Below, in pieces: positions 35,997 to 52,880 of a stretch of 64,000 bases of DNA (the stretch's first letter is position 1; the number at the start of each line of letters is the position of its first letter). Position numbers and translations under genes: made by a program. The stretch is from Alphaproteobacteria bacterium (GTDB lineage: Bacteria > Pseudomonadota > Alphaproteobacteria > Caulobacterales > Caulobacteraceae): contig JAHJOK010000046.1 in NCBI GenBank assembly GCA_018820205.1, forward strand, positions 1-64,000, read 5' to 3'. The notes beneath the pieces were generated by a model. It saw only the letters and a list, made by a program, of their open reading frames with translations, was not told where the DNA came from and did not search any database.

Positions 35997-37757
35997 TCAG
36001 GGCAGCAGGGGGAACATCCCGGTGAGGCGGTCGCGCGCCCGCTCCAGCAGGCCACGACGCTCCGGCGGCGCCGCCGGCAGTTCGGCCTCAAGGGCAGACA
36101 GGGCCAGGGGATAGGAGCCGTTGGTGCGGACCATCTTTACGGCGGTGACGAAATCGCTGGTCGGACACCCCGTGCCGAAGGTCCAGAACCGAGTCTGGTC
36201 CGTGCCGGCCGTCTGCAGCACGCAACGGCGATCCGGCGCCAGCGACAGCCACACCACGCCCTGGAAGTCGGCCAGGGCGCTGCCGGCGAAATCGTCATGG
36301 CCCAGGAGGCCGCCCGAGGCCTGGGTGGTGTCGACGGTCTGCAATCCGGGCTGGACGACGACCTGACGCGCGTCGCCGACCCGGCGCATGCCGTTCACCT
36401 GCGCCGACACCTGCAGCGCCCGGTCGCGGCGCGAGGCGTAGAGGGTGAACCGGTCGGCCGTCGGGACGATGCGGGGCCAGGTCGCGTCGAACTCGTCCAC
36501 GGCGACATCGGCGGCCGCCAGGATCACCTCGTTGAACATCGGCGGCTGTCCTTGCGTGCTCGCCCCGATCCGGTCCAGCGCTCGCAGCAGGACCCGATTG
36601 CCCATCGAGTGGGCGACCAGATGCACCCGCTCGGCGCCCGTCTGCCGGGCCACCTGGGTCAGGAAGCCGGCGACGTCGTCCAGCAGGGCCTCGTCCGCGA
36701 CAGTGCGGGTGTCGGCGGCATAGGCCAGCAGCGAGGCGCGCGAGGGCCAGGAATACAGGATCGGCGCGCCGTCCAGATTCATGTCGACCGCCAGCTGGGC
36801 CGTGCGCAGGGCCGCCCCCTCGAAGCTGGTGTTGTAGCCATGGATGAAAACGAACACCTCCTTACGGGACGAGGCGCCGATGCGGGCGGTGACGGCGGCC
36901 ATGAAGCTTTCGCGATCGGTGACCGGCGACACGCTGTTCAGGATCATGTGGCGTTCCGGATCGGGTCGGAACTCGAACGTCAGAAAGGACGCGGGCAGGG
37001 GCAGGGAGCCGACGGCCCGGTCGCGCGGCACGCTGACCTCGGCGGTCCCGAACGTCATTGGCCCCCGGTCGCCGCCGAACACCTCGTCCGCGGCGCTGCG
37101 CCCCGTCGGCGCTCGGTGGGTCGCCCAGTAGATGTCGACGAGCCGGAAATTGCGATCCGCCTCCGCGACCACCGGCGGCTCGACCGGAGCAGGCGGCGGC
37201 GCCGGCGGGGGCGCGATGCCGCGCGCGGCCAGGTCGCGATTGACGATGTCCCGCACGCCCTCCAGTTCGGTCCGATAGGGCACGAGGACGGGATTGGCGG
37301 CGCCCACGACCTGGCGACGGATGCGATACGCGTCCTCCAGCCCTTCCAGCCGGTCCGCAGGATCGACTTGCAGCCGGGCCAGGGCCGCCAGCGGATCGGC
37401 CAGCGACAGATCGTCCTCGCCCCTGGTTTCGCGGATGACCTGCAGCGCCAGTTCGAAGGCGGCGATGGCGTCCTGGGTCTGGTTCGCCTCGGCATAGGCC
37501 TGGGCGAGGGCCAGCTGGAAGGCGATGAAGGTGTCGGCGTCGGAAGCGCGAAGCTGTTGCAGCAGGGGCAGATCGCGGGACACGGCGCGCAGCGCGGCGA
37601 TGTCGCCCTGGTCCACGGCGACCGCGACCCTTTGAAGGTCGGGCCCGGCAAGGTCGGACCCGGCGTCCTGGGCGCGGGCTTCCGCCGCTCCGATGGACAA
37701 GGCCATCAAGGCGATCAGTCCGAAACGCGGCGCCAATGTTTTGCTCAACCAACTCAT
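35997..37757 (-). CDS. Exported TPR and DUF900 alpha/beta hydrolase
   Basis: A 586-residue protein with a signal peptide (FGLIALMALSIGAAEARAQ). Residues about 40-190 form helical TPR-like hairpins (FIAFQLALAQAYAEANQTQDAIAAFELALQ), followed by a Pro-rich linker (APPPAPPPAPVEPP). The DUF900 hydrolase domain begins at VDIYWATHRAPTG. The nucleophile elbow is AHSMG, and VFVFIHGYNTSFEG is the oxyanion strand. DUF900 proteins are serine esterase-like; the substrate is unknown. It is divergent from the CHASE2 gene, sharing a 166-base intergenic region, and may belong to the same envelope system because both sides combine TPR and exported hydrolases. Confidence 0.8.
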   Translation of the reverse strand: MSWLSKTLAPRFGLIALMALSIGAAEARAQDAGSDLAGPDLQRVAVAVDQGDIAALRAVSRDLPLLQQLRASDADTFIAFQLALAQAYAEANQTQDAIAAFELALQVIRETRGEDDLSLADPLAALARLQVDPADRLEGLEDAYRIRRQVVGAANPVLVPYRTELEGVRDIVNRDLAARGIAPPPAPPPAPVEPPVVAEADRNFRLVDIYWATHRAPTGRSAADEVFGGDRGPMTFGTAEVSVPRDRAVGSLPLPASFLTFEFRPDPERHMILNSVSPVTDRESFMAAVTARIGASSRKEVFVFIHGYNTSFEGAALRTAQLAVDMNLDGAPILYSWPSRASLLAYAADTRTVADEALLDDVAGFLTQVARQTGAERVHLVAHSMGNRVLLRALDRIGASTQGQPPMFNEVILAAADVAVDEFDATWPRIVPTADRFTLYASRRDRALQVSAQVNGMRRVGDARQVVVQPGLQTVDTTQASGGLLGHDDFAGSALADFQGVVWLSLAPDRRCVLQTAGTDQTRFWTFGTGCPTSDFVTAVKMVRTNGSYPLALSALEAELPAAPPERRGLLERARDRLTGMFPLLP

Positions 37758-37835: not shown

Positions 37836-37923
37836 AATGGTCGGCTTGACCCGATGATCGGTGAACGGGACTATCCGGACGCCCCGCGACCCATTCCGAC
37901 GGGCGTCGTTGCGGGAAAAGATC

Positions 37924-39474
37924 GTGAACGGTTCAGAGGATCCGGAACCCTGGTGGAACAAGGCCCTGGTCGCGGCGCTGGCGGGCCTTTTGTTCAGCCT
38001 GGTCATGTCGGCCCTGTTCTCGCTGGGGTCGGCGTTTCGCATCGCGCCGCTGGTGGCCGTCGAGCGCGCCGGGATCGACTTCGGCATGATGGCCTACACC
38101 GCCTTTTCAGGCCGGCCCCAGCAAACGACGGACGACCCGCGATACGTCTTCGTCGATGTCGATCGTGCAGCCTGCGAGGCCTTCTCCGAGGCGCCGGAGG
38201 CCTGTGTCGGCGGCCGCCCAATTCCGCCGGCCCTGACCGTAGCCTTCGCCAGGGCGGTGCGCGGTTCGGGCGCCTCGGTGGTGTTGATCGACGTCAGGGC
38301 GCCCGAGGATGAGGAAGAGCGCGCGCGCCTGGCCGATGCGATGACCGCGACCGACGGTCCGTGGATGATCGCCTCGCTCGGCGTCCGTCCCCGCCGGTCG
38401 ACCCGGCAGATGGAGGTGGTCGCCGAGCCGGAGACCTTGCTCGGGCCCAGCGATCGAGCGGCGCTGCGGCGCGGTCGGCTGGTGCTGGCGCCGTTCGTGA
38501 CCTCGACCGACGCCTTCGCCGCCGATGGGATCATCCGCCACTATCCGTTGCTGGAGCAGGTTCACGGCCTGGGCGGTGCGGCGGAACCTCGCGGTCTGCC
38601 CAGCGCGCCCTTCCTCGCCGCCAGCCTGACCGACCCGGCAAACGCTGAAGCCATCCTGTGCCGCTACTACGCCGAGACCGGCGACACCTGCGCGTCGTCT
38701 GGGCGTCCGGGAGCAACCGCCGACATCCGATTCGGCGAACGCACCGACATGCGCAACCGGATCTTCTACAGCCTGCCCAGTCTTGCGGCGGCCGGAGCGG
38801 AGCAGGGCCGGGTCTATCGTGACCGCTATCTGGGATTCTATGACCGGATCGACGCCTCCGCATTGCTGGACGGCGACGGGTTTTCCTGGCCGCCGGAGCT
38901 GATGCAGGGCGCGGTCGTCGTCCTGGGGACCAGCGCGCCCGAAGGCCACGACTGGCATGTGACGCCGGTGGGGCCGATGGCCGGGCCGGAAATCCTGCTG
39001 AACGCCATCCGCGCCTTCTCCGAATATTCTCCGCTCAGCGAACCGTCAGTGACGGCCACGGCGGGCGAGCGGTTCGCCGCCGCCTGGCGCGGGTTTGCGA
39101 TCAAGGTCGGCGCGATGACCAGCGGAACCCTGATCATGCTGGTCGGCTGGTTCGCCATCTTCTGGATCAGCGACTGCTGGACGGCGGCGCCGAGGTGGGT
39201 TCGTCAGGCGGCCTGCGTGACGATCTTCCTCGTTATCCTGTTGGTCACGGCCATGTACGAACTGTTCAGCGGCATCGCCTCGCTGGAGCGGAACGCGCAG
39301 GTTTCCGAGGCTACCGACCTGCTGACCCCCTTGCTGGCCCTGGGGCTGGAGGGCTTCGCCGAGGCGGCGCGGACCTTCGCCCAGGCCTCGGAGGCCCTGG
39401 TCGCCTGGGCGTTGGCCCGGGGACTGACCATGGCCAGGACATTGAACAGGAGCGCGTCCGATGAGGTCGCCTAG
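37924..39474 (+). CDS. CHASE2 domain membrane protein without output domain
   Basis: A protein of about 516 residues. One N-terminal transmembrane helix (ALVAALAGLLFSLVMSALFSL) precedes a large extracytoplasmic CHASE2 domain with RYVFVDVDRAAC, VVLIDVRAPEDEEERARLADAM and the terminal VVVLGTSAPEGHDWHVTPVG. Two helices follow near residues 397-455 (GTLIMLVGWFAIFWISDCW, AACVTIFLVILLVTAMYELF) and a short helical tail. CHASE2 normally sits in front of a kinase, cyclase or phosphodiesterase; none is present. The GTG at 37924 has a GGGAAAAG site; an in-frame GTG at 37861 without one is the alternative. The stop lies 14 bases inside the next gene. Confidence 0.82.
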   Translation: MNGSEDPEPWWNKALVAALAGLLFSLVMSALFSLGSAFRIAPLVAVERAGIDFGMMAYTAFSGRPQQTTDDPRYVFVDVDRAACEAFSEAPEACVGGRPIPPALTVAFARAVRGSGASVVLIDVRAPEDEEERARLADAMTATDGPWMIASLGVRPRRSTRQMEVVAEPETLLGPSDRAALRRGRLVLAPFVTSTDAFAADGIIRHYPLLEQVHGLGGAAEPRGLPSAPFLAASLTDPANAEAILCRYYAETGDTCASSGRPGATADIRFGERTDMRNRIFYSLPSLAAAGAEQGRVYRDRYLGFYDRIDASALLDGDGFSWPPELMQGAVVVLGTSAPEGHDWHVTPVGPMAGPEILLNAIRAFSEYSPLSEPSVTATAGERFAAAWRGFAIKVGAMTSGTLIMLVGWFAIFWISDCWTAAPRWVRQAACVTIFLVILLVTAMYELFSGIASLERNAQVSEATDLLTPLLALGLEGFAEAARTFAQASEALVAWALARGLTMARTLNRSASDEVA

Positions 39475-40393
39475 AGCATTTCGCACAGCGCCGGTCGCGA
39501 GCGCCTGGTCTGGCCGAACCCGGCGCTGGCTGGCGGTTGTCGTCTTCGCGTGGTTCGCGATCGCCGCCCCGGTCTCGGCCCAGCAAAGGCCGGTCGGTCA
39601 GATCGATGCCGCGAGTGGGGTCGTACGCCCGACCGATGCGACGGTCACTCGCGCGGTGGGCGGGACGACGCCGGCGCGGTCGCTGGTCCGCCTCTATGAC
39701 GGCGACCGCGTCTCGGTCAGCGGCGCCCGGACCCGGCTGACGTTGTTCCTCGCCGGGGTCGAGACCCCCACCGTGGTCACTCGCGCCAACAGCCCGTTCA
39801 TCGTCAGGGGACGCCGGACGGGCGCAAGTCAGGGCTTCGTGACCGAGATGTTCGCCAGCCTGGACCTGATGTTCAATCGACCCCGCATGGCCATCGCCAC
39901 GGCGACCGAAGCGCGCGGACCCGAAGATGCGCGCACGGCCGCTGCGGCCCTGCCCTCGGGGCGCCAGCGTCTGCCGGAAGGGGAACGCCGTCTGCTGGTG
40001 CTCTGGTCCGGTCCGGCGTCGGTGGTGCAGGTCGCTCAGGGCGACGAGAGACGCGAATGGGCGGCGTCCCTGTATGCGTCCACCTTCATCGACGCGCCGG
40101 AAACAGGCGATTTCGACGTCGTGCTGCCGGGAGACGCCCTGGGCTGGACCGTCTCTCGCGTTCCGGCGGCGGATGCGCCCCGGGCGCCCGGAGCGCCGGC
40201 CGAGGGCGAACTGACTGCCGACGAGCGACTGGCCAACGCCATATGGCTGATCGCCGAAGGAGACGCGGAATGGCGCCTTTTCGCCCTGTCGGAGGTCGCG
40301 GACCTGGCCCAGACCGACTATGGCGCCGCGCGTCTGCTGGCCGCCACACGCGCGGACGAGATCGAGCCCGGCGATCTTCTGGCGGCCGAATAG
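39461..40393 (+). CDS. Exported FecR-like domain protein
   Basis: A 310-residue protein with a signal peptide (WLAVVVFAWFAIAAPVSAQ). A FecR-like beta domain follows (residues about 45-115; VGGTTPARSLVRLYDGDRVSVSGARTRLTL). The remainder includes RLLVLWSGPASVVQVA and a C-terminal helical segment (ERLANAIWLIAEGDAEWRLFALSEVADLA). Unlike classical FecR there is no cytosolic anti-sigma part and no FecI-type sigma factor nearby. It is probably a periplasmic ligand-binding or partner protein for the CHASE2 sensor; the two genes overlap by 14 bases. Confidence 0.72.
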   Translation: MRSPRAFRTAPVASAWSGRTRRWLAVVVFAWFAIAAPVSAQQRPVGQIDAASGVVRPTDATVTRAVGGTTPARSLVRLYDGDRVSVSGARTRLTLFLAGVETPTVVTRANSPFIVRGRRTGASQGFVTEMFASLDLMFNRPRMAIATATEARGPEDARTAAAALPSGRQRLPEGERRLLVLWSGPASVVQVAQGDERREWAASLYASTFIDAPETGDFDVVLPGDALGWTVSRVPAADAPRAPGAPAEGELTADERLANAIWLIAEGDAEWRLFALSEVADLAQTDYGAARLLAATRADEIEPGDLLAAE

Positions 40394-40502
40394 ACCGTCG
40401 CTGAGCGCCGGGAGCGCCGGAGTTGGTCGGACGACAGCGACGGGCTTCGACGTCCATGCTCGGCGAGGGGGCGCACGGGGCGTCGCAGACCAGCAGGATC
40501 AC

Positions 40503-41900
40503 ATGCCGAACATGACCGCCGCCGGGATCGGCGCCGTCTCCATCGCCGCGATGGCCCTGGCCATCAGCCTGACGCCGGTTCCGGCGGCCGCCGCAATCCA
40601 GACCCTTGAAAGCTCGGCGGAAGCCGTAGGCGCGGCCTCGCCTCGCCGGACCATGGCGGAGGCCCTGCGTTCGATCGTTCTGATCGGCCCCGCCGATGCA
40701 GGCTCGGGTCCGGCGTCAGGAACCGGCTCGGGCTTCGTCTTTACGGGCGGGGGGGAGGTGCTGACCAACGCCCATGTGGTGGGCGCGGCGCGTACCGTCA
40801 GGGCGACCCTGTTCGACGGGCGCAGTTTCGACGCGGATGTCGTAGGGGTCGATGCCCGAACGGACATCGCCGTGGTTCGCCTTCCGCCCGAGGCGAGTGC
40901 CGCCCCCCTGGCTTTGGCGGGCCCGGGTCGAGACCTGCCGCCGGGCTCGCCCGTCTATGCTCTGGGCAATCCGATGGGCTTCGGGTTTTCCGTCACCTCC
41001 GGCGTCATTTCGGGCGTGGGCCGCAGTTATGATGTGGTGACGCCGGTCGACTTCCTGCAGCACGATGCGGCGTTGAACCCCGGCAGCTCGGGCGGGCCGC
41101 TGGTGGACGCGGATGGCGTGGTCGTGGGCGTCAACACCGCGACGCCGGCCGAGACGATTTTCGATATCGGGATCGGTCTGGCTATCCCGTCGGACTTCGC
41201 CGACGATGTCGCCCGTCGCCTGATCGCGGATGGATCGATCGAGCGGGGGGCGCTGGGGTTGAGGGTCAGCTACGCAGATTCGGCGGTGGCCGCTGCCCTG
41301 GGCGTGGAGGGCGTCGCCGGGGCTCTGGTGGACGAGGTCGAGGCCGACAGCGCCGCCGGACGGGCCGGCCTGCTGGCGGGCGATCTGATCCTGACGATCG
41401 ACCAGGAACCGGTCGCCTTTCCCCGGGACGTCCTCGCGCGCACCATGAGGCGTGCGCCGGGTGAGCGGGTGACGATCGATTTCGTGCGATCGGGACGACG
41501 CAGGTCGGCGGTCGTGACCCTGCAGAGAGACGCCCCCGCCCGTGCGGCCGCCGGACGGATCTCTGGCGGCGCCCACGGCGAAGAGGACGCCGACTTGGGT
41601 CTGAGTCTGGGCCCGGCGCCAGACGGCTCGGGCGCTGTGGTCGTCGATGTGGTCTTCGGTTCGCTGGCGCAGACCTATGGCCTGGGACCGGGCGACCGCA
41701 TCGAAGCCGTGAACGGAGCAACCGTCGCCGGACCCGAAGACGTTCGCGTCCGCCTGGCCCGCGCGACCGGCGCCGTGGTCGTTCTGAGGGTTGAGCGGCA
41801 GGGCCTCGGCGTGCGCCATATCAACCTTCCGCGTACGCTAGCGGACAGTATGTCGCGTCGTCCGGGACTGGCGGCCGAACAGCAATCCTCCCCGCTGTGA
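40503..41900 (+). CDS. HtrA/DegP-like serine protease with two PDZ domains
   Basis: A 465-residue exported protease. The signal peptide (AVSIAAMALAISLTPVPAAA) leads to a trypsin-fold domain with catalytic triad H91 (TNAHVVGA), D121 (ARTDIAVV) and S196 (NPGSSGGPL). Two PDZ domains follow (GALGLRVSYADSAV..., DLGLSLGPAPDGSGAV... with YGLGPGDRIEAVNG). This is the DegP/DegQ layout used for periplasmic quality control and for regulated cleavage of membrane signalling proteins. The ATG at 40503 has an AGGA site. It lies 109 bases after the FecR-like gene and could be the first protease of a cascade. Confidence 0.88.
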   Translation: MPNMTAAGIGAVSIAAMALAISLTPVPAAAAIQTLESSAEAVGAASPRRTMAEALRSIVLIGPADAGSGPASGTGSGFVFTGGGEVLTNAHVVGAARTVRATLFDGRSFDADVVGVDARTDIAVVRLPPEASAAPLALAGPGRDLPPGSPVYALGNPMGFGFSVTSGVISGVGRSYDVVTPVDFLQHDAALNPGSSGGPLVDADGVVVGVNTATPAETIFDIGIGLAIPSDFADDVARRLIADGSIERGALGLRVSYADSAVAAALGVEGVAGALVDEVEADSAAGRAGLLAGDLILTIDQEPVAFPRDVLARTMRRAPGERVTIDFVRSGRRRSAVVTLQRDAPARAAAGRISGGAHGEEDADLGLSLGPAPDGSGAVVVDVVFGSLAQTYGLGPGDRIEAVNGATVAGPEDVRVRLARATGAVVVLRVERQGLGVRHINLPRTLADSMSRRPGLAAEQQSSPL

Positions 41901-41912
41901 TTGGCTATGAGT

Positions 41913-41931
41913 GGTGAAAACCTAGTTCACC
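41913..41931. promoter_or_regulatory. Inverted repeat 1 upstream of the small exported protein gene
   Basis: GGTGAA (41913-41918) and TTCACC (41926-41931) are perfect arms around a seven-base AACCTAG spacer, 13 bases after the serine protease stop. No T run follows, so an operator is more likely than a terminator. It lies in a 129-base gap that probably holds the promoter of the next gene. Confidence 0.38.
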
Positions 41932-42029: not shown

Positions 42030-42728
42030 ATGAAAACCATCCGTACCAAGTCGATCCTGCTCGCATCCGTCGTCGTGGCCCTCGCGGGCTCGGCGATGGC
42101 GCAGGATCAGACCGGCCAGAACATGGGAACCGGCAGCGGCGAGATGTCGCCGGCGGCCACCTCCGTGGCGACCGCCACGGACGCCTTGAGCCTGGCGGCC
42201 TGGGCTCGCGAATCGCAGGACGCAGAGGCCATGCTGGTCGCCGCGCGCATGCTGGCCTCGGTCGGCACCCTGGGTGAAGGCGAAGAGCCCGAAGCCACGA
42301 CGGACTCGACCGCCGAAGGTTCGGCGACCGGATCGCCGCCGACGGCGGCGGCCCTGTTCGACGAAGCCGTCGAACTGGCCGAAGGCGATCCCGCCATCAT
42401 CGAGCGGGTCTCGGCCGCGCGTTCGCAGGCCTCGCGCGGACTGGTCGGCGGCGCTGTCAGCTGGGTCCGCGACATCTCGGCCCGGTCGAGCGTCAGCTAT
42501 CAGATGACGCCGCGCGGCGGCTATGTCTGGAACGTCGTGGCGGCCGGCGACGGCGACACCGATGTCGACATGGACGTCTTCGACCAGAACGGCAATCTGG
42601 TGTGCCGTGACATCCGGGTCTCGTCGCGCGCGAGCTGCAGCCTGACGCCCGCCTGGACCGGTCCGTTCACGGTCCGCATCAGCAACCTGGGCGGCGTGTG
42701 GACCCGCACCTTGGTCATGAGCAACTAG
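42030..42728 (+). CDS. Small exported beta-sandwich protein (PPC-like), copy 1
   Basis: A 232-residue protein with a signal peptide (SILLASVVVALAGSAMAQ). A helical segment follows (LAAWARESQDAEAMLVAARMLASVG), then an acidic Ser/Thr/Glu linker, a second helix (AALFDEAVELAEGDPAIIERV) and a C-terminal beta domain (residues about 165-232, YVWNVVAAGDGDTDVDMDVFD). That domain resembles bacterial pre-peptidase C-terminal domains. Two cysteines (LVCRDIR, SCSL) could form a disulfide. A paralogue lies at 47017. The ATG at 42030 has a GGGGAC site; it probably has its own promoter and is followed by a strong hairpin. Confidence 0.72.
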   Translation: MKTIRTKSILLASVVVALAGSAMAQDQTGQNMGTGSGEMSPAATSVATATDALSLAAWARESQDAEAMLVAARMLASVGTLGEGEEPEATTDSTAEGSATGSPPTAAALFDEAVELAEGDPAIIERVSAARSQASRGLVGGAVSWVRDISARSSVSYQMTPRGGYVWNVVAAGDGDTDVDMDVFDQNGNLVCRDIRVSSRASCSLTPAWTGPFTVRISNLGGVWTRTLVMSN

Positions 42729-42789: not shown

Positions 42790-44712
42790 GTGCGTCCGGT
42801 GAAGGTCTCGAGCAGCACGAAGCGAGCCGGCCGATATGGAATGACCGTGGGTCTGACGCTGAGCCTCGGCGTCCTGGCCGCTGCGGCGCAGGCCGGGGAC
42901 GAGGGTTTCCAGCGGGACTGCCCGCCGGCCTTCGACTTCGGTCCCCTGATAATGGACGATGCGGCGGCGGACGCCCCGATCCCGATCGAGGTTCTGCGGT
43001 GCGAAACCTTCGTCCGCGCCCAATGGACGGTCCTGTCCGACGGCGCCGATGCGCTCCAGGCGATGTCGGCCCGAATCGCCCAGGGCGGCGATCGACTGGG
43101 GGTGATCGAGGCGGAACGGCGCCGCATCACCGCCCTGATCGCCACGAAACAACGGCGCCGGGAAGAACTGCTCGGCGAACCGGAGGACCGGCGCGAGCCG
43201 CAGCTGGGCCAGCTGACCGCCGAGATCACCGAACTGTCCCGGGCCGTCAGTGAACTGAACGATCAGATCGTTCGCGAATTCCCCGCCTATGGCGAGCTGT
43301 CGGCGCCGTCGGCCATCGACATCCCCCGTCTGCGCTCGTTGATGCGCGACGACGAGGTGGTGGTCCAGATCCTGGTCAATGACGACGCCGCCTATATATG
43401 GGCCGTCAGTCGCGACCGCATCGAATGGCGTCGGGCGGCGGACTTCGGGACCGAGGCGATGAACGCCGCCGTCACCGACCTGCGCCGGGGACTTGAAGTC
43501 GCCGACGTGACGCGCGGCCGCGATCTGGTCGCCGAGGCGCAGGCCAGGCAGGAGGCACAGGCGGCCCAGGCCGAGGCGGCGACCGCTCCGACCCCCTACA
43601 ACCGCATTCTGGCCCACAAGCTGTACGCCGATCTCTTCGGCCAGGTATCAGAGACGCTGGCTGGCAAGCGGACGATGATCGTGGTGGTCAACGGCGCCCT
43701 TTCAGGCATCCCTCTGGGCGTACTGGTGACCGAGACGCCGAGCGGTGACGATCGCAATCCCGACGCCCTGCGCGCCACGCAATGGCTGGCCGATCGCCAT
43801 ACGCTGGTGACCCTGCCGTCCCTGTCTTCGCTGGTGTCGCTACGGTGTTTCGAGCGGGGAGCGGCCGCGTCCCAGCGACCCGCCGGTTGTCCGTCCCTGA
43901 GCGACGCCGGCGCCGCCAGCCTGACGGTCTCGGAGGTGGAGCCGCTGTCGTTCTTCGGGGTCGGCGATCCCATTCTGGGCGGGGCGACAGGCGTCGCTTC
44001 GCGCGGCTCGGCGGCGACGCCGACGGTGGATGCGGCCTATTCGGGAAAGCTGGCGAACGTCGAGGTTCTGCGCGCCATGCGCCGGCTGCCCGGAACGCGT
44101 ATCGAGCTGGAGGCGATCGCCGAACAGTTCAAGGCGCGCGGCGAAACCAGCGTGATCCTGTTCGATGACGAGGCGCGCGAGCCGAAGATCATGACCCGGG
44201 ACGCCGACGGCGGCGGCGTCAGGACCAACCCGGATCTGGCGCGTGCGCGCTATGTCTCGTTCTCGACCCACGGCCTGCTGACCGGACAGGGGGGCGAAGG
44301 CGCCGAGCCCGGCCTTGTCCTCACCCCGCCGGCGACAGCGACGGAGGCCGACGATGGTCTGTTGTCCGCGTCGGAAGCCGCCCAGCTGACGCTGCGCGCG
44401 GAGTTCGTGGTCCTGTCCGCCTGCAACACGGCGGCGGCGGACGGATCGGTCGGCGCCGAAGGGCTGGCCGGGCTGGGGCCCGCCTTCTTCTATGCCGGCG
44501 CGCGCTCGCTTCTGGTCTCGCACTGGGAGGTGTCCGACAGTGCCACCGCCGAACTGATGAGCGGCACGTTCGCCGGTCTCGACGCGGGGCAGGGGCGCGC
44601 CGCCGCGCTGCAACAGTCGATGAAGGCGGTTCGCGACAACCGCGATCACCCCGAATGGGCCCACCCCAGCTTCTGGGCCCCCTTCAGTTTCATCGGAGAG
44701 CCCGGTCGCTGA
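42790..44712 (+). CDS. Exported CHAT domain protease
   Basis: A 640-residue clan CD (caspase-fold) cysteine protease. An N-terminal signal (YGMTVGLTLSLGVLAAAAQA) is followed by a partly coiled-coil region (residues about 85-165) and the CHAT domain (about 180-637). The catalytic pair is visible: H494 in FSTHG and C545 in VLSACNTA, with ARSLLVSHWEVSD and FWAPFSFIGEPG completing the family signature. CHAT proteases usually have TPR repeats in the same chain; here TPR repeats are instead on a separate protein at 50358. The start at 42790 is a GTG; the ATG at 42841 is possible but cuts into the positive N-region of the signal. Confidence 0.88.
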   Translation: MRPVKVSSSTKRAGRYGMTVGLTLSLGVLAAAAQAGDEGFQRDCPPAFDFGPLIMDDAAADAPIPIEVLRCETFVRAQWTVLSDGADALQAMSARIAQGGDRLGVIEAERRRITALIATKQRRREELLGEPEDRREPQLGQLTAEITELSRAVSELNDQIVREFPAYGELSAPSAIDIPRLRSLMRDDEVVVQILVNDDAAYIWAVSRDRIEWRRAADFGTEAMNAAVTDLRRGLEVADVTRGRDLVAEAQARQEAQAAQAEAATAPTPYNRILAHKLYADLFGQVSETLAGKRTMIVVVNGALSGIPLGVLVTETPSGDDRNPDALRATQWLADRHTLVTLPSLSSLVSLRCFERGAAASQRPAGCPSLSDAGAASLTVSEVEPLSFFGVGDPILGGATGVASRGSAATPTVDAAYSGKLANVEVLRAMRRLPGTRIELEAIAEQFKARGETSVILFDDEAREPKIMTRDADGGGVRTNPDLARARYVSFSTHGLLTGQGGEGAEPGLVLTPPATATEADDGLLSASEAAQLTLRAEFVVLSACNTAAADGSVGAEGLAGLGPAFFYAGARSLLVSHWEVSDSATAELMSGTFAGLDAGQGRAAALQQSMKAVRDNRDHPEWAHPSFWAPFSFIGEPGR

Positions 44713-44736: not shown

Positions 44737-45555
44737 TTGCCCGATCTGCTCGACCATCCGGCCCAGGACGCCATCGACGCGCTGCGCAACGTCTGCGGCG
44801 GCCGCCACGCGCTGATCCTGGAAGACGACCCCCTGACCGCCGCCCGGGGCCGCGAGGGTCTGGCGGCGATAGGCTTCACCGAGATCGATGTGGTCGAGGT
44901 CGGGGAGCAGGCGGTCCAGGCGGCGTCGCGCAAATGCTATGACGTCATCCTGCTGGACCGGATGAACCCCGGCCTGGACGGGCTCGAAGTGCTCAGCAGG
45001 ATTCGCGCCCTGCCGGATCGACCGGACCGGTCGACACGGTCGCCGATCCTGATGCTGACGGCGCTGGGCGGCGACCGGAACCGGATCGAGGGCCTGCTGC
45101 GCGGCGCCGACGACTATGTGCCCAAACCCATCTCGATGTCGGAGCTTCAGGCCCGCGTGGCCGCCCAGATCCGCCGCACGACATGGACGGCACCGCGCGG
45201 CGTGGCGACGCCGCTGCTGAACAACGGGCCGCTGGTCATCGACACCCAGGCGCCCACCGTGAGGCTGGGCGAGATCGAAATCCGGCTGCCGCCGCGATCA
45301 CTGGGCGTGCTTGTCGAACTGATCCGGTTCGCGGGCCAGCCCGTATCCAAGACCATGCTGTGGGACCGCGCCTGGAGCGACTGGGCCAGCCAGCCCGACG
45401 AGTGGCAGGACACGATCGACGTCGCCGTCCGCCGCGTTCGCCGCAGCCTGGAGGAGGCCGAAGCCGCGGTCCTGCCGGCGAACCTGCGGCCGATCGTCAT
45501 GACCGTGCCGCGCGTCGGCTATATGGCGCGCGACCTGACCGGTCTGACGGACTGA
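44737..45555 (+). CDS. OmpR-family response regulator
   Basis: A 272-residue regulator. The receiver domain (about 22-145) has the acidic pair LILEDDP, the phospho-acceptor D74 (VILLDRMNPGLDG) and the Lys in DDYVPKPIS. A winged helix-turn-helix follows (about 165-268; RLPPRSLGVLVELIRFAGQPVSKTML and the DTIDVAVRRVRRSL recognition helix). The start is a TTG at 44737 with a GGAGAC site; no ATG fits. It is coded one base before its likely kinase and inside the protease cluster, so it probably controls this locus. Confidence 0.88.
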   Translation: MPDLLDHPAQDAIDALRNVCGGRHALILEDDPLTAARGREGLAAIGFTEIDVVEVGEQAVQAASRKCYDVILLDRMNPGLDGLEVLSRIRALPDRPDRSTRSPILMLTALGGDRNRIEGLLRGADDYVPKPISMSELQARVAAQIRRTTWTAPRGVATPLLNNGPLVIDTQAPTVRLGEIEIRLPPRSLGVLVELIRFAGQPVSKTMLWDRAWSDWASQPDEWQDTIDVAVRRVRRSLEEAEAAVLPANLRPIVMTVPRVGYMARDLTGLTD

Positions 45556-45556: not shown

Positions 45557-47020
45557 ATGTGGCGGTTCACGACATCGCGGGCGATCGCGGCGCTGGGCCT
45601 GTTCGCCCTGGCGGTGATGATCGGCGCGGTCGCGGCCACCGATCTGTGGCTGCGCCAGTTGAGCGAAGAGCGGATGCTGGCCGTCGCGCGACGGGACGCC
45701 TCGACGTTTCGAACCCTGTATGCCGGCTTGCCTGAGCCGGCCCGGACCGACGCCCTGCTTCTGGCGGCGCCGGCCTTCGCCCTGCAGGCCCAGGCCGCGC
45801 GCGGCGACATCGGCCAGGGGGCGGCGGCGGCGGCGGACCCCTGCGGCGCGGCGGACCGGGACCGCACGATCATGGCGGCCTGGTTCGATGCTCCGGTGGC
45901 CAACAGCGGGGGCTTCGTCGGTGCGTCTCCCGGGTCCGTGGTGCTCGACTGGGAACGTCTGCGGCGCCTTCCGTCCGGCTCGACCGTCAGATTTCAGGTC
46001 GCGCCCGACGCCGCCTGCAACCGGACAGAGGCCCATGCCGTGGGCGTGGTGGAGCGGATCGGCGACGTGCATCTGGTCGTGGGCGGTCTGGTCGATCCTG
46101 AAAACGCCGTCCGAAGCCGGGTCTGGATGGCCGGGGCGGGAGCGGCGGGTCTGATCGCCGTGGCCGGCGTCCTGGCCTTCGTCCTGGTGACCCGTCGCAC
46201 CGCTGATCAGGTTCGTGACCTGTCGCGGGTGCTGACCCGCGCGGGTCGCGGTGATTTCGCCGCCCGGGCCGATGTTCCGCATGCGGAGGGCGAATTCGCC
46301 ATTCTCGGCGGCCAGATCAACGACGCCATCGATCGGCTCGCCACCCAGAACCGGGGCCTTCGCGAGATCGCCTCGCGCATCGCCCACGATTTCCAGCGCC
46401 CTCTGACCGCAGCGCAGTTCAAGCTGGAGGACATGGTGCGCGCCGCCCCGACGCCAGAGGCGAGGGCGTCGGCCGAGGCGGCGTCGGGCGCCCTGGACGA
46501 ACTTTCGCGGGGTTTCCGCGCCTATCTGGACGTGGGCGAGATCGCCGGCGGAATGATCCGCGAATTCTCGCCGATCGACCTTTCGGCGGCAGTGGCGCGG
46601 GCGACGGAATTCTATGCCGACGGTCCGGCGGAACAGCGGGGCATCCAGCTGGAGCTTTCGCTGATCCCGTCCACGGTCCTGGGCTCGACGGCTCTGATCG
46701 AGCGCGCGATCTCGAACCTGTTGTCCAACGCTGTGAAATTCTCGCCCGATGGCGGTCATGTCCGCATCGACCTTGTCCGCGCCGGAGCCGGCGTGGTGCT
46801 GGAGATCCGCGACCAGGGGCCGGGCTGGCCCGCGGAACTCGAGGATACGCTGGGCCAGTTCGGCGTGCGCTCGGAACGGGACGAGGGTGGCGGACACGGG
46901 GTAGGACTGGCGTCGGTCATCGCCATCATGGCCCATCACGGCGGCAGTCTGGAACGGTCGACCACGACGGGCGGCGGCGCCGTCGCCCGTCTGGTGTGGC
47001 CTGTGACGGTCGCGCCATGA
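45557..47020 (+). CDS. Sensor histidine kinase
   Basis: A 487-residue transmembrane kinase. Helices at about 8-28 (IAALGLFALAVMIGAVAAT) and 195-218 (AGLIAVAGVLAFVLV) bound a periplasmic sensor region of about 165 residues with two cysteines (DPCGAAD, AACNRTE). A HAMP-like linker precedes the H-box IAHDFQRPL with phospho-acceptor H277. The ATPase domain has N box ISNLLSNAVKFSP, G1 DQGPGW and G2 GHGVGLA. It likely phosphorylates the regulator coded just upstream. Its stop overlaps the next start (ATGA), tying it to the second small exported protein. Confidence 0.9.
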   Translation: MWRFTTSRAIAALGLFALAVMIGAVAATDLWLRQLSEERMLAVARRDASTFRTLYAGLPEPARTDALLLAAPAFALQAQAARGDIGQGAAAAADPCGAADRDRTIMAAWFDAPVANSGGFVGASPGSVVLDWERLRRLPSGSTVRFQVAPDAACNRTEAHAVGVVERIGDVHLVVGGLVDPENAVRSRVWMAGAGAAGLIAVAGVLAFVLVTRRTADQVRDLSRVLTRAGRGDFAARADVPHAEGEFAILGGQINDAIDRLATQNRGLREIASRIAHDFQRPLTAAQFKLEDMVRAAPTPEARASAEAASGALDELSRGFRAYLDVGEIAGGMIREFSPIDLSAAVARATEFYADGPAEQRGIQLELSLIPSTVLGSTALIERAISNLLSNAVKFSPDGGHVRIDLVRAGAGVVLEIRDQGPGWPAELEDTLGQFGVRSERDEGGGHGVGLASVIAIMAHHGGSLERSTTTGGGAVARLVWPVTVAP

Positions 47021-47622
47021 CCCTGTCGCTGATCGTCCTATTGGTGCTGGCCGAGCCGGCTCAGACCTCCCCGCCCGAGGGAACCGCCGAACTCATGCTG
47101 GCCGCCCGGGTCGCGGACTGGGCCCGCAGGACGGGGGATGCGGACGCCATGATCGTGGCCGCCGATCTGGTGCGCGCCCATTCCGGCGCCGCGCCGGCGG
47201 GCGCGGAAGGCGATATCGACGTCGGCGATCAGGCCCTGTTCGACGAAGCTGCGGCGCTGGCGCCGGACGTCGAGGCGGCCGCCCGTGTGGCGACGCATCG
47301 CGCCATCGATCCGCGCGGCGTGGCCCGCGCTCTGGGCGCCGACGGTCCGATCGGCCGGCTGATGCTGATCGCGCCCGGTCGCCCGTTGACCTTCTCGCTG
47401 ACGGCGCGCGGCAGCGAACAGGCCCTGCTTCACGTCGGCCCGACCGGCGGGGGCGATCTGCAGGTCACGATCCAGGATGATCGGGGCCAGACCCAGTGTT
47501 CCGAGCGGGCGCCCGCTCGCCCGGTGCTGTGCAACTGGCGCCCAACATTCACCACCACCTACCGCGTGTCTATCCGCGTGGTTTCGGCTGTCCCGGTGAC
47601 GACCGTGATCACCAGTAACTGA
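47017..47622 (+). CDS. Small exported beta-sandwich protein (PPC-like), copy 2
   Basis: A 201-residue paralogue of the protein at 42030. It has a short signal (TLSLIVLLVLAEPAQT), then a matching helix (AARVADWARRTGDADAMIVAADLVRAH, compare LAAWARESQDAEAMLVAARML) and a second helix (ALFDEAAALAPDVEAAARV). The C-terminal beta domain has two cysteines (TQCSERA, VLCNW), and both copies end in V-x-SN after a TVRIS/RVSIR strand. It is translationally coupled to the histidine kinase by ATGA and lies 10 bases ahead of the caspase gene, suggesting a role beside the kinase or the protease. Confidence 0.72.
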   Translation: MTLSLIVLLVLAEPAQTSPPEGTAELMLAARVADWARRTGDADAMIVAADLVRAHSGAAPAGAEGDIDVGDQALFDEAAALAPDVEAAARVATHRAIDPRGVARALGADGPIGRLMLIAPGRPLTFSLTARGSEQALLHVGPTGGGDLQVTIQDDRGQTQCSERAPARPVLCNWRPTFTTTYRVSIRVVSAVPVTTVITSN

Positions 47623-47632
47623 GGAGGGCCCG

Positions 47633-50302
47633 ATGGCTTTTGTTTCGACGATCCGGCGATGCGGCCTGGTTCTGGGACTGGCGGCGTTCATCGCCCTGGG
47701 CGGCGCCGTTCACGGCGCCGGCGCACAAACGACGGCGGCGGATCAGCCGCGCCTGCACGTGCTGCTGATCGCGGGGAACCAGTACGAGCATCTGCCCTTC
47801 TCCGGCGACATGCCCTCGGCCACGGCCGACGCCTTCCTGTTGGCCGACGTGCTGATGGATCGCGGGGCCCGAAGCGAGGACGTCCGGCTGGTGACCGACG
47901 GCGCCCCGACCGACGCCATGTGGTCGGAATCGGAAAATGCGGCGCCCTCGGCCTTCCGCATCGCCCAAGCCGAAGCGACGCGCCAAGACGCCCACGCCCT
48001 GGCCGAACGGGGCGTGGCGCCGCTCGGCGCCGCCACCCGCGCCCGGATTCTGGAAGAGCTCGATCGACTGGTCCGCGTGGCCGAACCGGGAGATCAGGCC
48101 TTCATCGCCATGGCCGGTCACGGCGAACAACAACCGACGGATGATCGCGAACAGGAGCCGGACGGTTTCGACGAGGCTTATCTGCCTGTCGATTTCGTGC
48201 GCCGGCTCGACGACGGACGGCTGGATGTCGCCGTGCTCGACGACGAGATCGGGGAGCGGGTGCGCGCCCTGCTCGACAAGGGAGTTCAGGTCGTCTTCGT
48301 CGGCGACTTCTGCCACTCCGAAGGCGGCACGCGCGGCGCCGGCAGCGCGGCCGGAGGACGGGCGGACATGCGGCTTATGGCCGGGGCCATGGGCACGACC
48401 GACGACGAAGGCAAAGGCCTGTTCACCGGCTTCTATGCCGCGCCGTCCCTGGCCCAGGCGCTGGGTCTGCCCGTGCCCTATTGGGCCAGCGACCCGTCCA
48501 CCCGGCGCATCCATGGCGCCCTGACCTATTATCTGGCGACCGCGCTTCAGGATCCGACTCTGACGACGATGCGCGATGTCGCCGTGCGGGTCGAGCGCGA
48601 CATCAACATGCACGCGCGCGAATCCAGTGTCCGCCTGCGACTGCCGCCGCCCCAGTTCGAGGGCGAGTTCGGCGCGCCCCTGCCGGGGTCCTCGGTCGGG
48701 CTGGCCGCCAGCCTGTGGCAGGTGGCCAAGCCGGTCACCTCGACCACGCTGGACCTGCGGACCGAGGTCAGCGAGCTGACGCTTCCCGCAGGCGTCCTGA
48801 ACGGCGTCGAACCGGGCGCGATCTACTCCCTGTCCCAGACCTGGAGCGGGCGCGAGCAGGTCATCCTGTACGGCCGGGCAGAGGACGTTTCGGCGAACCG
48901 CGCCATCCTGCGGCCCGTTGCGGCCGGAGACCTGGGCGTCGACGCCTGGACCGACCTGCGCACCGAAGAAGGCCAGCCGATGACACGGCCCGCCACCTTC
49001 ACCGCCCGGCTGTTCGCCCCCGGCGCCCCGGAGACGGTGTGGATCGCGCGGCCCGCACCGCCGGCAGATCCGACCCCGGCCCAAGCAGAAGCTCTCGCGG
49101 ATCTCGACGAACTTTACGCGGTGCAGGCCCGCGGACTGGACGCCGCGTCCGACAGCACGGTGCAGTTGCCGGCCTATGTCCGGTTGGTCGACGCGGACGC
49201 GGCCGGAGCATCGCTGAGCCTCGCCTTCGAAAACGACAACCTCGTGCTGGTGGACGACGCCGAAGACGGTCGCAGTCTGGCGAGCATGGATCTGGACAGG
49301 GCGCTGGAGCGGATCCGGCCCGCCGGCTCGGACGACCGCCTCAGCGACCTGCGCGCCAGCCTGGCGGAGGGGCTGGCGGTCGCCGCGCGATTCCAGCGCA
49401 TCCGGTCCGCCGCGATGCGGGTCAGCGACGCGACGGGCCAGGACGGGGTTTCGTCCTTCGACGGACTGGCGCTGAGCCTCTACCGCCATCGCCCTGCCGC
49501 CGTGGTGAACGGCGAATGCGCTGACGGCCCGTGGGCCGACGCGGGTATCATCGACTGGGCCATGGCTGACGGAGCGCCGACGGGAACCATGGAGATCGAC
49601 CCGACCGATCTGGGCAGCCCGGGCGGCGCCCAGGTCTGCGACACCTTCGTCATCGAGGTGCGCAACGAGGGATCGCGCACGGTGGCCATGAGCGCGTTGC
49701 GAAATGAACCGTCGGGCGGCTGGGACGGGCCTTGCGCCCGCGTCGCCGGAGGGGCCGGGGGCCTCGCGGCCCTGGCGCCCGATCAGACCTACGCCTGCAC
49801 CCAGCCGGTGTCGGTGGGTCTGGTCGCCTTCGACGCCGACAGCTCGATTTCGGCCCTCAGCGCGGTCGGCGGGGAGACGCCCCAGCGCAACGGCGCCACC
49901 CGGCTGACGCGCGGCGGTCGCGTTCGCTATGTCTATCAACTAACCGAGGCCGATCCGGCGTATCTGGTCCGGATGGATTTCATGATCCTGGCCGCCCGGT
50001 CCCTGTATCGCCAGGACAGTCTGCCGGTCCATTTCAGCCAGCTGTGCCAGCGCCCGTTGCAGGACGCTTTCGTCGGCCCGATGGCGCCGGGCGAAACGGC
50101 CGCGCCCGATCCCTGTCTGGCGGCACAGGGTCGGTTCCGCAGCGCCCGGGCGGCGAGCGACGCATCCGCTCCGCCGGCCGTGGACGGACTGTTCGCCCTG
50201 CTGTCCGGCGAGGCCACGCGGGGGGATTCGCCCCAGCCCGTCGGCGGCACCGCGATGCGGCGCCTGACCCTTCAGGTCACGCCGAGGGCGGTGAACGAGT
50301 AA
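47633..50302 (+). CDS. Exported caspase-family (peptidase C14) protease
   Basis: An 889-residue protein with a signal peptide (LVLGLAAFIALGGAVHGAGA). A p20-like caspase domain occupies residues about 38-330. The catalytic dyad is H163 (MAGHGEQQ) and C227 (VGDFCHSEGG, with the D-x-C spacing of metacaspases). After it come about 550 residues of mixed beta domains, including a late segment with CDTFVIEVRNEGSRTVAMSAL, which may bind partners or substrate. It probably acts in the periplasm. No p10 domain is evident, so it is metacaspase/orthocaspase-like, with expected Arg/Lys specificity only by analogy. Confidence 0.86.
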   Translation: MAFVSTIRRCGLVLGLAAFIALGGAVHGAGAQTTAADQPRLHVLLIAGNQYEHLPFSGDMPSATADAFLLADVLMDRGARSEDVRLVTDGAPTDAMWSESENAAPSAFRIAQAEATRQDAHALAERGVAPLGAATRARILEELDRLVRVAEPGDQAFIAMAGHGEQQPTDDREQEPDGFDEAYLPVDFVRRLDDGRLDVAVLDDEIGERVRALLDKGVQVVFVGDFCHSEGGTRGAGSAAGGRADMRLMAGAMGTTDDEGKGLFTGFYAAPSLAQALGLPVPYWASDPSTRRIHGALTYYLATALQDPTLTTMRDVAVRVERDINMHARESSVRLRLPPPQFEGEFGAPLPGSSVGLAASLWQVAKPVTSTTLDLRTEVSELTLPAGVLNGVEPGAIYSLSQTWSGREQVILYGRAEDVSANRAILRPVAAGDLGVDAWTDLRTEEGQPMTRPATFTARLFAPGAPETVWIARPAPPADPTPAQAEALADLDELYAVQARGLDAASDSTVQLPAYVRLVDADAAGASLSLAFENDNLVLVDDAEDGRSLASMDLDRALERIRPAGSDDRLSDLRASLAEGLAVAARFQRIRSAAMRVSDATGQDGVSSFDGLALSLYRHRPAAVVNGECADGPWADAGIIDWAMADGAPTGTMEIDPTDLGSPGGAQVCDTFVIEVRNEGSRTVAMSALRNEPSGGWDGPCARVAGGAGGLAALAPDQTYACTQPVSVGLVAFDADSSISALSAVGGETPQRNGATRLTRGGRVRYVYQLTEADPAYLVRMDFMILAARSLYRQDSLPVHFSQLCQRPLQDAFVGPMAPGETAAPDPCLAAQGRFRSARAASDASAPPAVDGLFALLSGEATRGDSPQPVGGTAMRRLTLQVTPRAVNE

Positions 50303-50357
50303 GGCGCAGGATGACAGTTGTGTCGCACCGGGCACTGGGCTCAACTCACAACGGTTT

Positions 50358-52880
50358 ATGAACGGGAAGGGCCCGATGGTCTGGGGCGGTCTGGCGAAAG
50401 CAGCCGGTGTTTCGATCGCTCTCTGGCTGGCGCCGGGGACGACCGTGACCTATGCGCCCGGCGTCAATGCGCGGGTCGAGATATCCGCCGCCGTCGTCGG
50501 CTCCAGCGCGACCCTGGAGGCGATCGAGCGACAGGCTGCTTCTCGCGACCGCGTCCGCCAGCAGGAGATCGCCGCGCTGCAGACTCGTCTGGCGGCCGCC
50601 GAGGCGCAGGGCGCGGCGGATATCGCGACGCTGCAGACGGAACTGGCCACGGCGCGCGAGGCCTTGGTCGCGGACCTGGCGTCACGCGACCGCGCCTATG
50701 CCCAGGAAATCGCGGTCTTCCGCCGCGAAGTGACCGATATCGCCTCGACGGACGAGGGCGCCGCCGCGCTGGCCCAGTTCAACCAGGGCGACGAGATCGG
50801 GGCGCTGGCGGTTCTGGACCGGCTGCGCGCGGCCAACGACCGCGCGCGCCAGGTTCGCGCCGACCTGCAAAGCGCGGCCGAGGCGCGCCGTATCGCGGGT
50901 CTGGCGCTGGATGCCCGCAACCGCAGCCGGATCGGCGCCGATGCGGTGATCCTCCGCTTCGAGGAGGTGACGCGGCTCGATCCCGAATCCTACGAGGACT
51001 GGCTGCGGCTGGTCATCCTCTACTCCGAAGTCGGCCGCCGGACCGATGCTCTGGGAGCGGCGGGACGGCTGGAGGCGCTGGCCGACGACGACCACAAGCG
51101 GGCGGTGGCTGGCATGCGCACGGCCGACATCCTGTTGAGCCAGGGCGATCGGGCCGGCGCGCTGGAGCGCTATCGGCAAAGCCTCGCCCTGCTGCAGCCC
51201 GCGCTGGCCGAGACCCCGACGTCTGAAGACCTGGCCATCGACGTCACACGCAGCCTGGACCGCATCGCCGCCGTCCTGGTGGGTCAGGGAGATCGGCCCG
51301 GCGCGCTGGCGCTTTACCAGCAGGCGCTGGCGTTCGACGAGCGGCTGTACGCCGCCCATCCGCAATCGGCCCAGTGGGCGCGCAATGTCAGCATCTCTCT
51401 GGACAGGATCGGCGCGCTTCTTCAGAGCCAGGGCGATCGCGCGGGGGCGCGGGCCCACTACGATCGCAGTCGGGAAATTCGCGAGGATCTGGCGATCGCC
51501 GAACCGACGTCGATGTTGCGCGCCAGCGATGTCGCGGTGTCGCTGACCCTGCTCGCCGACGTCAAAGCCAGTCAGGGCGACCGCGACGGGGCGCTGGATA
51601 GCCATCGAACGGCGCTGGATATCCGCCAGCGGCTATCCGCCGCCGACCCCGCATCGGCCGATCTGGCGGACAAGGTGTTCGGGTCGCTGATCAGCGTGGG
51701 CGATCTGCTGGCGGAAGGCGGCGCCCGGTCGGACGCACAGGAGCGCTACCAGCAGGCGCTGGAAATCGCCGAACGGACCTCGGCGGCCGACCCGGCGTCG
51801 ATCGAACTGGCCTTCAGCGTCAGCCTCGCGCTCGACCGGCTGGGCGGCCTCTTGCAGGACCAGGGCGATCGGGCGGGCGCGCGGGCGCTCTATCAGCGCA
51901 GTCTCGAGATCGATGAACGCCTGTACGTTCAGGATCCGACGTCAGCGGGCGTGGCGGTCAATCTTTCCGGTTCGCTCCAGCGCATGGGCGCGCTGCTGGC
52001 TGGCCAGAACGACGTCGAAGGCGCGCTCGAGTTCTATCGCCGCAGTCTGGAAATCCGCGAGCGTGCGGCCGCCGCCGATCCGGAGTCCGCAGTCTTCGCC
52101 GAACAGGTGTCCACCGCTCTTAGCGGGATGGGCGCGTTGCTGGAGCGTCACGGCGATCAGGACGGTGCGATGTCCCTCTATGAGCGCAGCCTGGAAATCG
52201 CCGAGCGACTGTCGGCGGCCGATCCGGCCTCGTTCGACCGGGTCAGGTTGGTCAGCATCGCCCAGGACCAGATCGCTGGTCTGCTATTGAGGCGCGGCGA
52301 CCGTGACGCCGCACTGGCCCGCTATGAGCTTAGCCTGGCCATCGACGAGCGGCTGTTCGCGGCGGCTCCCGGGTCCGAGACATTTGCCCGCAGTCTCAGC
52401 ATCGCACTTGAACGGATCGCTGCGATCAAAGTCGAACAGCGAGAGCACAAGGCGGCGCTGGCGTACTATCGGCGCAGCCTCGACATCACCGATCGGGTTT
52501 ACGCCGCCAGCCCGACCTCGCATGCGCTCGCGCGCGAATTCTCGACCTCCCTCATCCGAGTCGGTGATGTGGAGCGAATTCTGGGCCGGACGGAGACCGC
52601 GCGTATTCACTATCTGCGCAGCCTGGCGATATCGCGGCGCTTGATCGCCGCCGATCCTGAGTCAGCGACCGTAGCCCGCGATATGTGCGTTTCCCTGTTG
52701 AAGCTCGCTGCTTTGACAGAGCAGCCGCGCTATCGTGTTCGCGCCCTTCTGATCCTGCGGAACATGAAGGCTACAGGCCGCCTCGCGGCAGACGATCGGA
52801 CATGGCTGACCCAGGTCGAGGACGAAGTTCACCGGGATGCGGCCGCGAGGCGGGAGACGCAGGCGTCACGCGCCTCTTGA
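50358..52880 (+). CDS. Exported or anchored TPR protein with eleven 48-residue repeats
   Basis: An 840-residue protein. A hydrophobic N-terminus (VWGGLAKAAGVSIALWLAPG) serves as signal or anchor, and a coiled coil spans about residues 48-130. From residue 262 there are eleven tandem 48-residue helical units with the core QGDRAGALxxYxxSL...AxxxP.S...A..VS.SLDRIGALL. These are TPR-type repeats with an inserted turn. The basic tail reads AARRETQASRAS. The ATG at 50376 (seventh codon) has a better ribosome-binding site (GGGAAGGG) and may be the true start. It closes the CHAT/caspase cluster and is its obvious scaffold candidate. Confidence 0.85.
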   Translation: MNGKGPMVWGGLAKAAGVSIALWLAPGTTVTYAPGVNARVEISAAVVGSSATLEAIERQAASRDRVRQQEIAALQTRLAAAEAQGAADIATLQTELATAREALVADLASRDRAYAQEIAVFRREVTDIASTDEGAAALAQFNQGDEIGALAVLDRLRAANDRARQVRADLQSAAEARRIAGLALDARNRSRIGADAVILRFEEVTRLDPESYEDWLRLVILYSEVGRRTDALGAAGRLEALADDDHKRAVAGMRTADILLSQGDRAGALERYRQSLALLQPALAETPTSEDLAIDVTRSLDRIAAVLVGQGDRPGALALYQQALAFDERLYAAHPQSAQWARNVSISLDRIGALLQSQGDRAGARAHYDRSREIREDLAIAEPTSMLRASDVAVSLTLLADVKASQGDRDGALDSHRTALDIRQRLSAADPASADLADKVFGSLISVGDLLAEGGARSDAQERYQQALEIAERTSAADPASIELAFSVSLALDRLGGLLQDQGDRAGARALYQRSLEIDERLYVQDPTSAGVAVNLSGSLQRMGALLAGQNDVEGALEFYRRSLEIRERAAAADPESAVFAEQVSTALSGMGALLERHGDQDGAMSLYERSLEIAERLSAADPASFDRVRLVSIAQDQIAGLLLRRGDRDAALARYELSLAIDERLFAAAPGSETFARSLSIALERIAAIKVEQREHKAALAYYRRSLDITDRVYAASPTSHALAREFSTSLIRVGDVERILGRTETARIHYLRSLAISRRLIAADPESATVARDMCVSLLKLAALTEQPRYRVRALLILRNMKATGRLAADDRTWLTQVEDEVHRDAAARRETQASRAS
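51141..52724 (+). repeat. Eleven in-register 144-bp coding repeats
   Basis: Units begin at 51141, 51285, 51429, 51573, 51717, 51861, 52005, 52149, 52293, 52437 and 52581, exactly 144 bases apart with no insertion or deletion. The first codon of each unit encodes Q, Q, Q, Q, G, Q, Q, H, R, Q and L. The repeats are diverged in sequence but fixed in length, and the last two are the most divergent. Confidence 0.85.

Follow-up and report, generated by a model that had tools for sequence, protein, structure and literature searches.

Three proteases, a two-component pair and a candidate substrate family in one Caulobacteraceae locus: comparative evidence for a putative envelope-located proteolytic signalling system

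Introduction

Do three proteases of different types, encoded beside a two-component pair within 16.9 kb of a Caulobacteraceae contig, belong to one system, and if so, which proteins would they cut? HtrA proteases act in the envelope. To our knowledge, most bacterial caspase homologues and CHAT proteases have no identified natural substrate, and proteases of these two kinds have been little studied in the envelope compartment. A first-pass annotation of the 64-kb stretch of DNA analysed here (the window) had read the block as a single envelope system of a composition for which it knew no described precedent. In our analysis, comparative genomics names a partner family that carries an exact candidate cut site for these proteases; if the reading developed below is true, caspase-type proteases would be tied to classical envelope-stress sensing.

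Results

Layout of the block

Open reading frames, GC3 bias and domain scans together define ten consecutive plus-strand genes (B to K, 37861-52880) and a single divergent gene, A, on the minus strand (Table 1), which confirms the arrangement described in the first-pass annotation. The short gaps and overlaps that it reported are also borne out, with intergenic distances of -4 to 55 bp from F to K. Read by eye, the start of D is probably 40503 rather than 40320, and the corrected starts of E, F and I are 42030, 42841 and 47017. The GH47 gene downstream lies outside the block. Neither a tRNA gene nor an Rfam family at its gathering score was found in the 64-kb window.

Table 1. Genes and derived features of the block, in window coordinates
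Feature	Description	Position	Strand	Remarks
A	TPR / DUF900 alpha-beta hydrolase	35997..37757	-	frequent accessory; PF05990
B	CHASE2 membrane protein	37861..39474	+	membership uncertain; PF05226
C	FecR-like by eye	39461..40393	+	membership uncertain
D	HtrA-like serine protease, two PDZ stretches	40503..41900	+	core
E	two-domain protein, candidate substrate	42030..42728	+	core
E linker	Arg-Gly codons, candidate cleavage site	42435-42440	+	derived by arithmetic
F	CHAT protease	42841..44712	+	frequent member; PF12770
G	OmpR-type response regulator	44737..45555	+	core; PF00072 + PF00486
H	membrane histidine kinase	45557..47020	+	core; PF02518 + PF00672
I	E paralogue, same linker Arg-Gly, ends 10 bp before J	47017..47622	+
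J	metacaspase-like protease, long C-terminal region	47633..50302	+	core
K	TPR protein	50358..52880	+	membership uncertain; PF13424

Hydropathy places an N-terminal or membrane segment in A, B, C, D, E, H and J, so an envelope location fits most parts of the block. F, I and K have no N-terminal segment by this measure, and a short hydrophobic stretch opens F and I. By hydropathy, the export signals that had been assigned to all three proteases find support in D and J and, in F, none beyond that short stretch; likewise, of the two small proteins described as exported paralogues, the paralogy stands and E has its segment, while I has none at its N-terminus. Among the other components, A matches DUF900 at 163 bits with a weak TPR match, B matches CHASE2 at 57.3 bits and carries no kinase or cyclase domain, and K matches its TPR family at 122 bits. 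G combines a response regulator domain with a winged helix. H combines a HATPase domain (73 bits) with HAMP and has two membrane segments by hydropathy. For C, Pfam gave nothing at E 0.1, leaving its description as FecR-like a reading by eye.

The three proteases

D matches Trypsin_2 (PF13365, 111 bits) and PDZ_2 (60 bits), the architecture of an HtrA-like protein, and its catalytic triad can be read by eye (NAHVV, RTDIAVV, NPGSSGGPL). Against TIGR02037, the Do/DegP HtrA equivalog, it scores 278.9 bits, below the cut-off of 416.2, and we therefore name it HtrA-like only. The CHAT domain of F scores 158.6 bits against a cut-off of 24, with His494 and Cys545 invariant in 8 of 8 rows.

J from the window has no Pfam match at E 0.1 and hence falls below PF00656, a family that its relative in locus L208 matches at 61.1 bits (cut-off 21.4). 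We considered whether the caspase call is wrong, given that Pfam misses J, and rejected this on the grounds of a metacaspase profile match and the fold. A profile of 30 relatives searched against solved structures retrieves metacaspases (4f6o, E 6.7e-29), and the best PDB matches of the structure model (mean pLDDT 72.6) are MALT1 and metacaspases. His163 and Cys227 are invariant in all 30 alignment rows, and Asp225, two residues before the cysteine, is kept in the same alignment, at the position that it has in Arg/Lys-specific metacaspases. The C-terminal half is conserved within the family and modelled with lower confidence. From alignment and model, J is a predicted caspase-fold protease with a His-Cys dyad. 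The catalytic residues called intact in the first-pass annotation are so in all three proteases (in D by eye), and its count of three protease types, which it called unrelated or distantly related, stands with the correction that the CHAT and caspase types are not unrelated, both belonging to clan CD. A preference for basic residues at P1 is typical of metacaspases and of the separase-like proteases of this clan.

A conserved basic residue in the linker of E

E and I are paralogues (25% identical) with no match in Pfam or NCBIfam. The model of E comprises a helical domain, a flexible linker and a jelly roll that is predicted to resemble pre-peptidase C-terminal (PPC) domains. All 31 E proteins taken from system loci have a basic residue (Arg or Lys) at one linker position; this set includes locus L076, where only a two-component pair adjoins E, and has 30 rows without it. 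After clustering at 50% identity the position is basic in 20 of 20 rows. This is the sole always-basic column of the E alignment. In the window the linker Arg-Gly corresponds to R153 and G154 counted from 41979 (Arg 136 counted from 42030), and the basic residue sits in a lower-confidence stretch of the model between two firm domains. Two cysteines and two alanines of E are equally invariant, and the linker Arg, with an invariant Gly next to it, may be structural.

Among E proteins that have no adjacent protease, 4 of 6 are still basic at this position. We rejected the idea that the basic residue disappears along with CHAT: it holds in genomes G071 and G027 and fails in G624, which belongs to the same genus as the window: a search of G624 gave no CHAT match, although its E keeps a linker Lys.

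In gene neighbourhoods, E and J share a strand and are no more than 300 bp apart at 19 of the best 80 J loci (of 170 relatives), one of these being weak. Among Caulobacterales genomes with a strong E match, CHAT lies within 10 kb in 11 of 15, a proportion that is partly circular because 8 of those genomes had contributed to the E profile and been identified via CHAT or J. When these seed genomes are left out, the count is 3 of 7 (G047, G168 and G198); G108 encodes CHAT elsewhere in its genome, and G010, G027 and G071 show no CHAT match. By position, E is the apparent hub of the block, a neighbour shared by both clan CD proteases.

Further variants of E were observed. The window's own genome holds a third copy at another site (contig C41, L070:10327-10953), with a linker Lys and no CHAT beside it. 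Several Rhizobiales pair J with a short E in which a Cys-rich tail takes the place of the jelly roll, and G894 and G914 have second E copies next to an FtsX-type gene, with the protease absent there.

The jelly roll of E also resembles, in its model, the substrate-binding appendages of secreted proteases, which speaks for an envelope quality-control operon in which the HtrA-like, caspase-like and CHAT proteases degrade damaged exported proteins under a CpxAR-like pair, with E and I as adaptors or chaperones. HtrA genes next to response regulators occur outside the system in the same genomes (the window's genome, contig C78; G083; G044, contig C6), in keeping with quality control, and this arm of the block may derive from such an ordinary envelope unit. 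An invariant basic linker residue and two site-specific protease types exceed what degradation needs, however, and we consider this explanation rather unlikely.

Conservation of a core in related genomes

A scan of a species collection with the J profile gave 170 relatives, the best 80 of which we retained, and 40 sampled 20-kb regions of eight genomes served as controls. Near J, we counted CHAT in 23 of the best 80 of 170 loci (0 of 40 controls), E in 22 (1 of 40), A in 13 (0 of 40), D in 10 (1 of 40), G in 8 (0 of 40), alpha-2-macroglobulin in 7 (0 of 40) and H in 5 (0 of 40), a rough comparison given that the controls are Alphaproteobacteria (35 of the 40 regions from Caulobacterales) and the J loci are taxonomically wider. 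J itself is absent from all 40 control regions. The lone control match to E is a true E at another site of G624, and control region L182 spans the empty block site of that genome. Four loci (L089, L090, L098, L108) come from genomes that seeded the profiles; without them the counts are E 18, F 20, A 11 and D 8 of 76. Contig ends truncate several of the J loci.

The set D, G, H, E and J is complete in the window and at six further loci (L080, L091, L098, L103, L208, L210), hosted by Caulobacter, Glycocaulis, Maricaulaceae, Acetobacteraceae and two species of another family. Gene order varies: HtrA-RR-HK-J-E-CHAT-A in a Caulobacter MAG (L080), HK-RR-HtrA-E-E-J-CHAT followed by alpha-2-macroglobulin in Maricaulaceae (L103), and E-E-HK-RR-HtrA-J in Acetobacteraceae (L091). 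Zavarzinia aquatilis (L090) has CHAT-E-J-E-E-RR-HK. Three genomes of genus g20, from another family, hold the response regulator, E, J, CHAT and A in one locus, with HtrA too, and L012 also carries alpha-2-macroglobulin and two TPR genes (Pfam). At the head of L080 (4547-7540), and likewise of L082, two adjacent HtrA genes run in opposite directions.

With the E helical domain as sole query, 10 of 398 genomes in the phylum gave a match, five from the window's genus (the window included) and five others. Two of the genomes reached in this way, G894 and G914 (family f27), have HtrA-RR-HK divergent from E-J. G642, with E-like genes, J and a TPR-CHAT gene, is the Mariprofundus locus L140, already recovered with the J profile; in G736 and G925 neither J nor CHAT adjoins the helical-domain match. 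Subsets of the system are also found. E stands next to CHAT with J absent in four genomes of the window's genus (G002, G032, G047, G052), and in some f4 genomes (L060, L062, L063) a two-component pair, E and CHAT share a stretch containing no J or HtrA. Among 200 Caulobacterales genomes, J was matched in 9, of which 4 (including the window) have E adjacent and 5 are other caspases by neighbourhood; CHAT was matched in 29 and E/I in 30, 15 of them at E 1e-15 or better.

These patterns bear on whether the block is a loose cluster of independent genes in a variable chromosomal spot. Gene content does vary among loci, and B, C and K are little conserved with the rest, as such a cluster would have it. 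Yet the core recurs in varied orders and orientations in several families against a near-zero background, which disfavours loose clustering for D to J and makes it, overall, very improbable. We are confident that the core of D, G/H, E/I and J is a real conserved system, and on gene content CHAT and the DUF900 hydrolase A are frequent additions to it. The first-pass annotation, which had named scattering in related genomes as the finding that would undo its single-system reading, is thus upheld for D, G, H, E and J in seven loci, often joined by A and F, and not for B, C and K. The conserved gene order that it proposed to look for was found in part: the core recurs in several families, with order and orientation changing and many genomes holding subsets only.

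As conserved members, B, C and K are weakly supported by these neighbourhoods. A single-sequence profile of B gave no match around the best 80 of 170 J relatives. Relatives of C were found at L109 alone among the best 80 of 170 J loci, and additionally in G161. TPR genes other than K lie close to J-CHAT in L012 and L081. In G161, which belongs to the same family as the window, FecR-like, CHASE2 and CHAT genes are adjacent (L057:7377-11331), and this layout is the clearest sign that B and C may go with CHAT. Stand-alone CHASE2 was tried as a marker of CHAT loci and rejected: counted by eye, there are six CHASE2 matches no more than 20 kb from a CHAT match, and one of the six, in G026, has a cyclase domain.

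Phylogeny of the shared components

With FastTree, the system HtrAs separate from other HtrAs of the same genomes in an exact split of negligible support (0.084); the best matching split in IQ-TREE, supported at 98, departs from the system set by one sequence, L236, a short, long-branch match. The regulator tree recovers the system split in FastTree (0.78) and not in IQ-TREE, and in the joined response regulator-kinase tree the other system pairs form one group with the window, L080 and L082 apart. These sets were adjusted post hoc: L085 and L105 had not grouped with the HtrA system set, nor L077 and L139 with the regulator set, and all four were removed for this reason; L213, L216, L243 and L253 are system copies, as are L248, L258 and L259, which were assigned by eye in the joined tree. 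Since the trees disagree, we rejected the claim that the regulator and kinase trees prove co-descent.

Site of the block and flanking genes

The block is flanked by metabolic genes, and the flank proteins are 80% (PepSY) and 91% (GH92) identical to those of the same-genus genome G624. On this identity we rejected a contaminant contig, which had to be considered given the listed contamination of 5.64%. In G624 the PepSY and GH92 matches are separated by 46 bp, GH47 follows about 3.7 kb further, and the 16.9-kb block A-K is missing from this site. The GH92-GH47 pair is inverted there relative to the window. We conclude from the absence of A-K as a whole and from the inverted pair that the block entered or left this site in one piece, accompanied by a rearrangement. 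GH47 and GH92 are alpha-mannosidase families; in the window their genes face each other (52933-57445), and the pair is adjacent also in G007 and G587.

Absence of the block from the G624 site, and the patchy distribution of this kind of J (4 of 200 Caulobacterales genomes), would suit a defence or self-killing module directed against phage or predators, with the caspase and CHAT proteases as envelope executioners. Alpha-2-macroglobulin adjoins some loci, and one J-E pair lies on a sequence titled plasmid (pMspAR07a, L104), as might be expected of such a module. Against it, a PADLOC scan of 10 of the 11 block proteins (G left out) found no known anti-phage system and gave weak, generic matches at the domain level only (RT-Protease_XI for D, caspase for J, TPR for K), the flanks are metabolic, and no toxin or pore domain was recognised in the block. 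We regard defence as improbable.

Discussion

Our own reading, to which we give slightly less than an even chance, is that the block encodes an accessory, envelope-located proteolytic signalling system in which J and CHAT would cut E and I at the linker. E and I would serve the two clan CD proteases as dedicated substrates or adaptors, and cleavage after the conserved Arg or Lys would part the helical domain from the jelly roll. The freed fragment would be either a periplasmic signal read by the kinase H or an effector acting on the envelope. D would remove misfolded or processed protein and the regulator G would adjust expression; the trigger would likely be envelope damage, and the output repair, defence or death. 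More tentatively, we propose that two different proteases of clan CD, one a metacaspase and the other a CHAT protease, both periplasmic, converge on E and I by cutting their conserved Arg/Lys-Gly linker, and that a two-component pair devoted to this system, with an HtrA of its own, would sense the result. This would constitute an undescribed class of bacterial envelope signalling, a periplasmic counterpart of caspase cascades.

Consistent with the first-pass annotation, we found no description of this gene combination in the one open-access library searched. In DegS-RseA, an HtrA-family protease takes part in envelope-stress proteolysis with output via an anti-sigma factor; the block likewise links an HtrA-family protease to envelope signalling, whereas DegS-RseA includes neither a caspase nor a CHAT protease. 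The nearest precedent for the proposed cutting of E and I is the Csx29/Csx30 pair of the type III-E CRISPR Craspase, in which, according to PMC10028731, the CHAT protease Csx29 cuts Csx30 and relieves sigma factor inhibition. Both settings place a CHAT-type protease beside a small multi-domain protein, with a cut in a flexible loop and a transcriptional consequence, the cut being a proposal for the block. Craspase differs in that it works in the cytoplasm on an RNA trigger and includes Cas7-11 and a sigma factor; the block has a predicted export route, a two-component pair, an HtrA-like protease and a caspase-like protease, and no Cas domain was found in it or in the neighbouring genes scanned.

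Other systems share individual elements. J has the His-Cys dyad and metacaspase-like fold of bacterial metacaspases and orthocaspases (PMC6426788) and differs from them in its long conserved C-terminal region, its predicted export and its fixed partner gene. The BiofilmReg operon of Burkholderia unites a response regulator, histidine kinase, FecR and CHASE2, as does the block; in the passages of PMC5192318 on this operon, CHASE2 lies inside the kinase, FecR is joined to LysM, and no proteases are included. In the block, CHASE2 (B) and the kinase (H) are separate, and Pfam finds no LysM. System 3 of the NucA/trypsin conflict systems is likewise alphaproteobacterial, with trypsin-like peptidases and a proposed proteolytic cascade, and is defined, in the section of PMC7159879 that treats it, by a NucA endonuclease, which was not found in the block. 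A small periplasmic protein that governs an adjacent two-component system is described in PMC12714742.

J relatives in other neighbourhoods

The system is not common to all J relatives: most Mesorhizobium J loci lack E, F and the two-component pair and lie in another recurrent neighbourhood. In L121 (6319-19993), a J relative stands between DNA polymerase I and genes for small Cys-containing, DUF4760, WD40, PGA_cap/Memo and MORN proteins (Pfam), and gene sizes in L110-L159, mostly from Mesorhizobium, are similar to this layout, which is possibly another caspase-based locus. In L096, L099 and L125, alpha-2-macroglobulin lies within 10 kb of J relatives, with E and CHAT absent. In L142 (9707-18177), a J relative is followed by a WD40 protein with a caspase domain of its own and then by a DUF900 protein.
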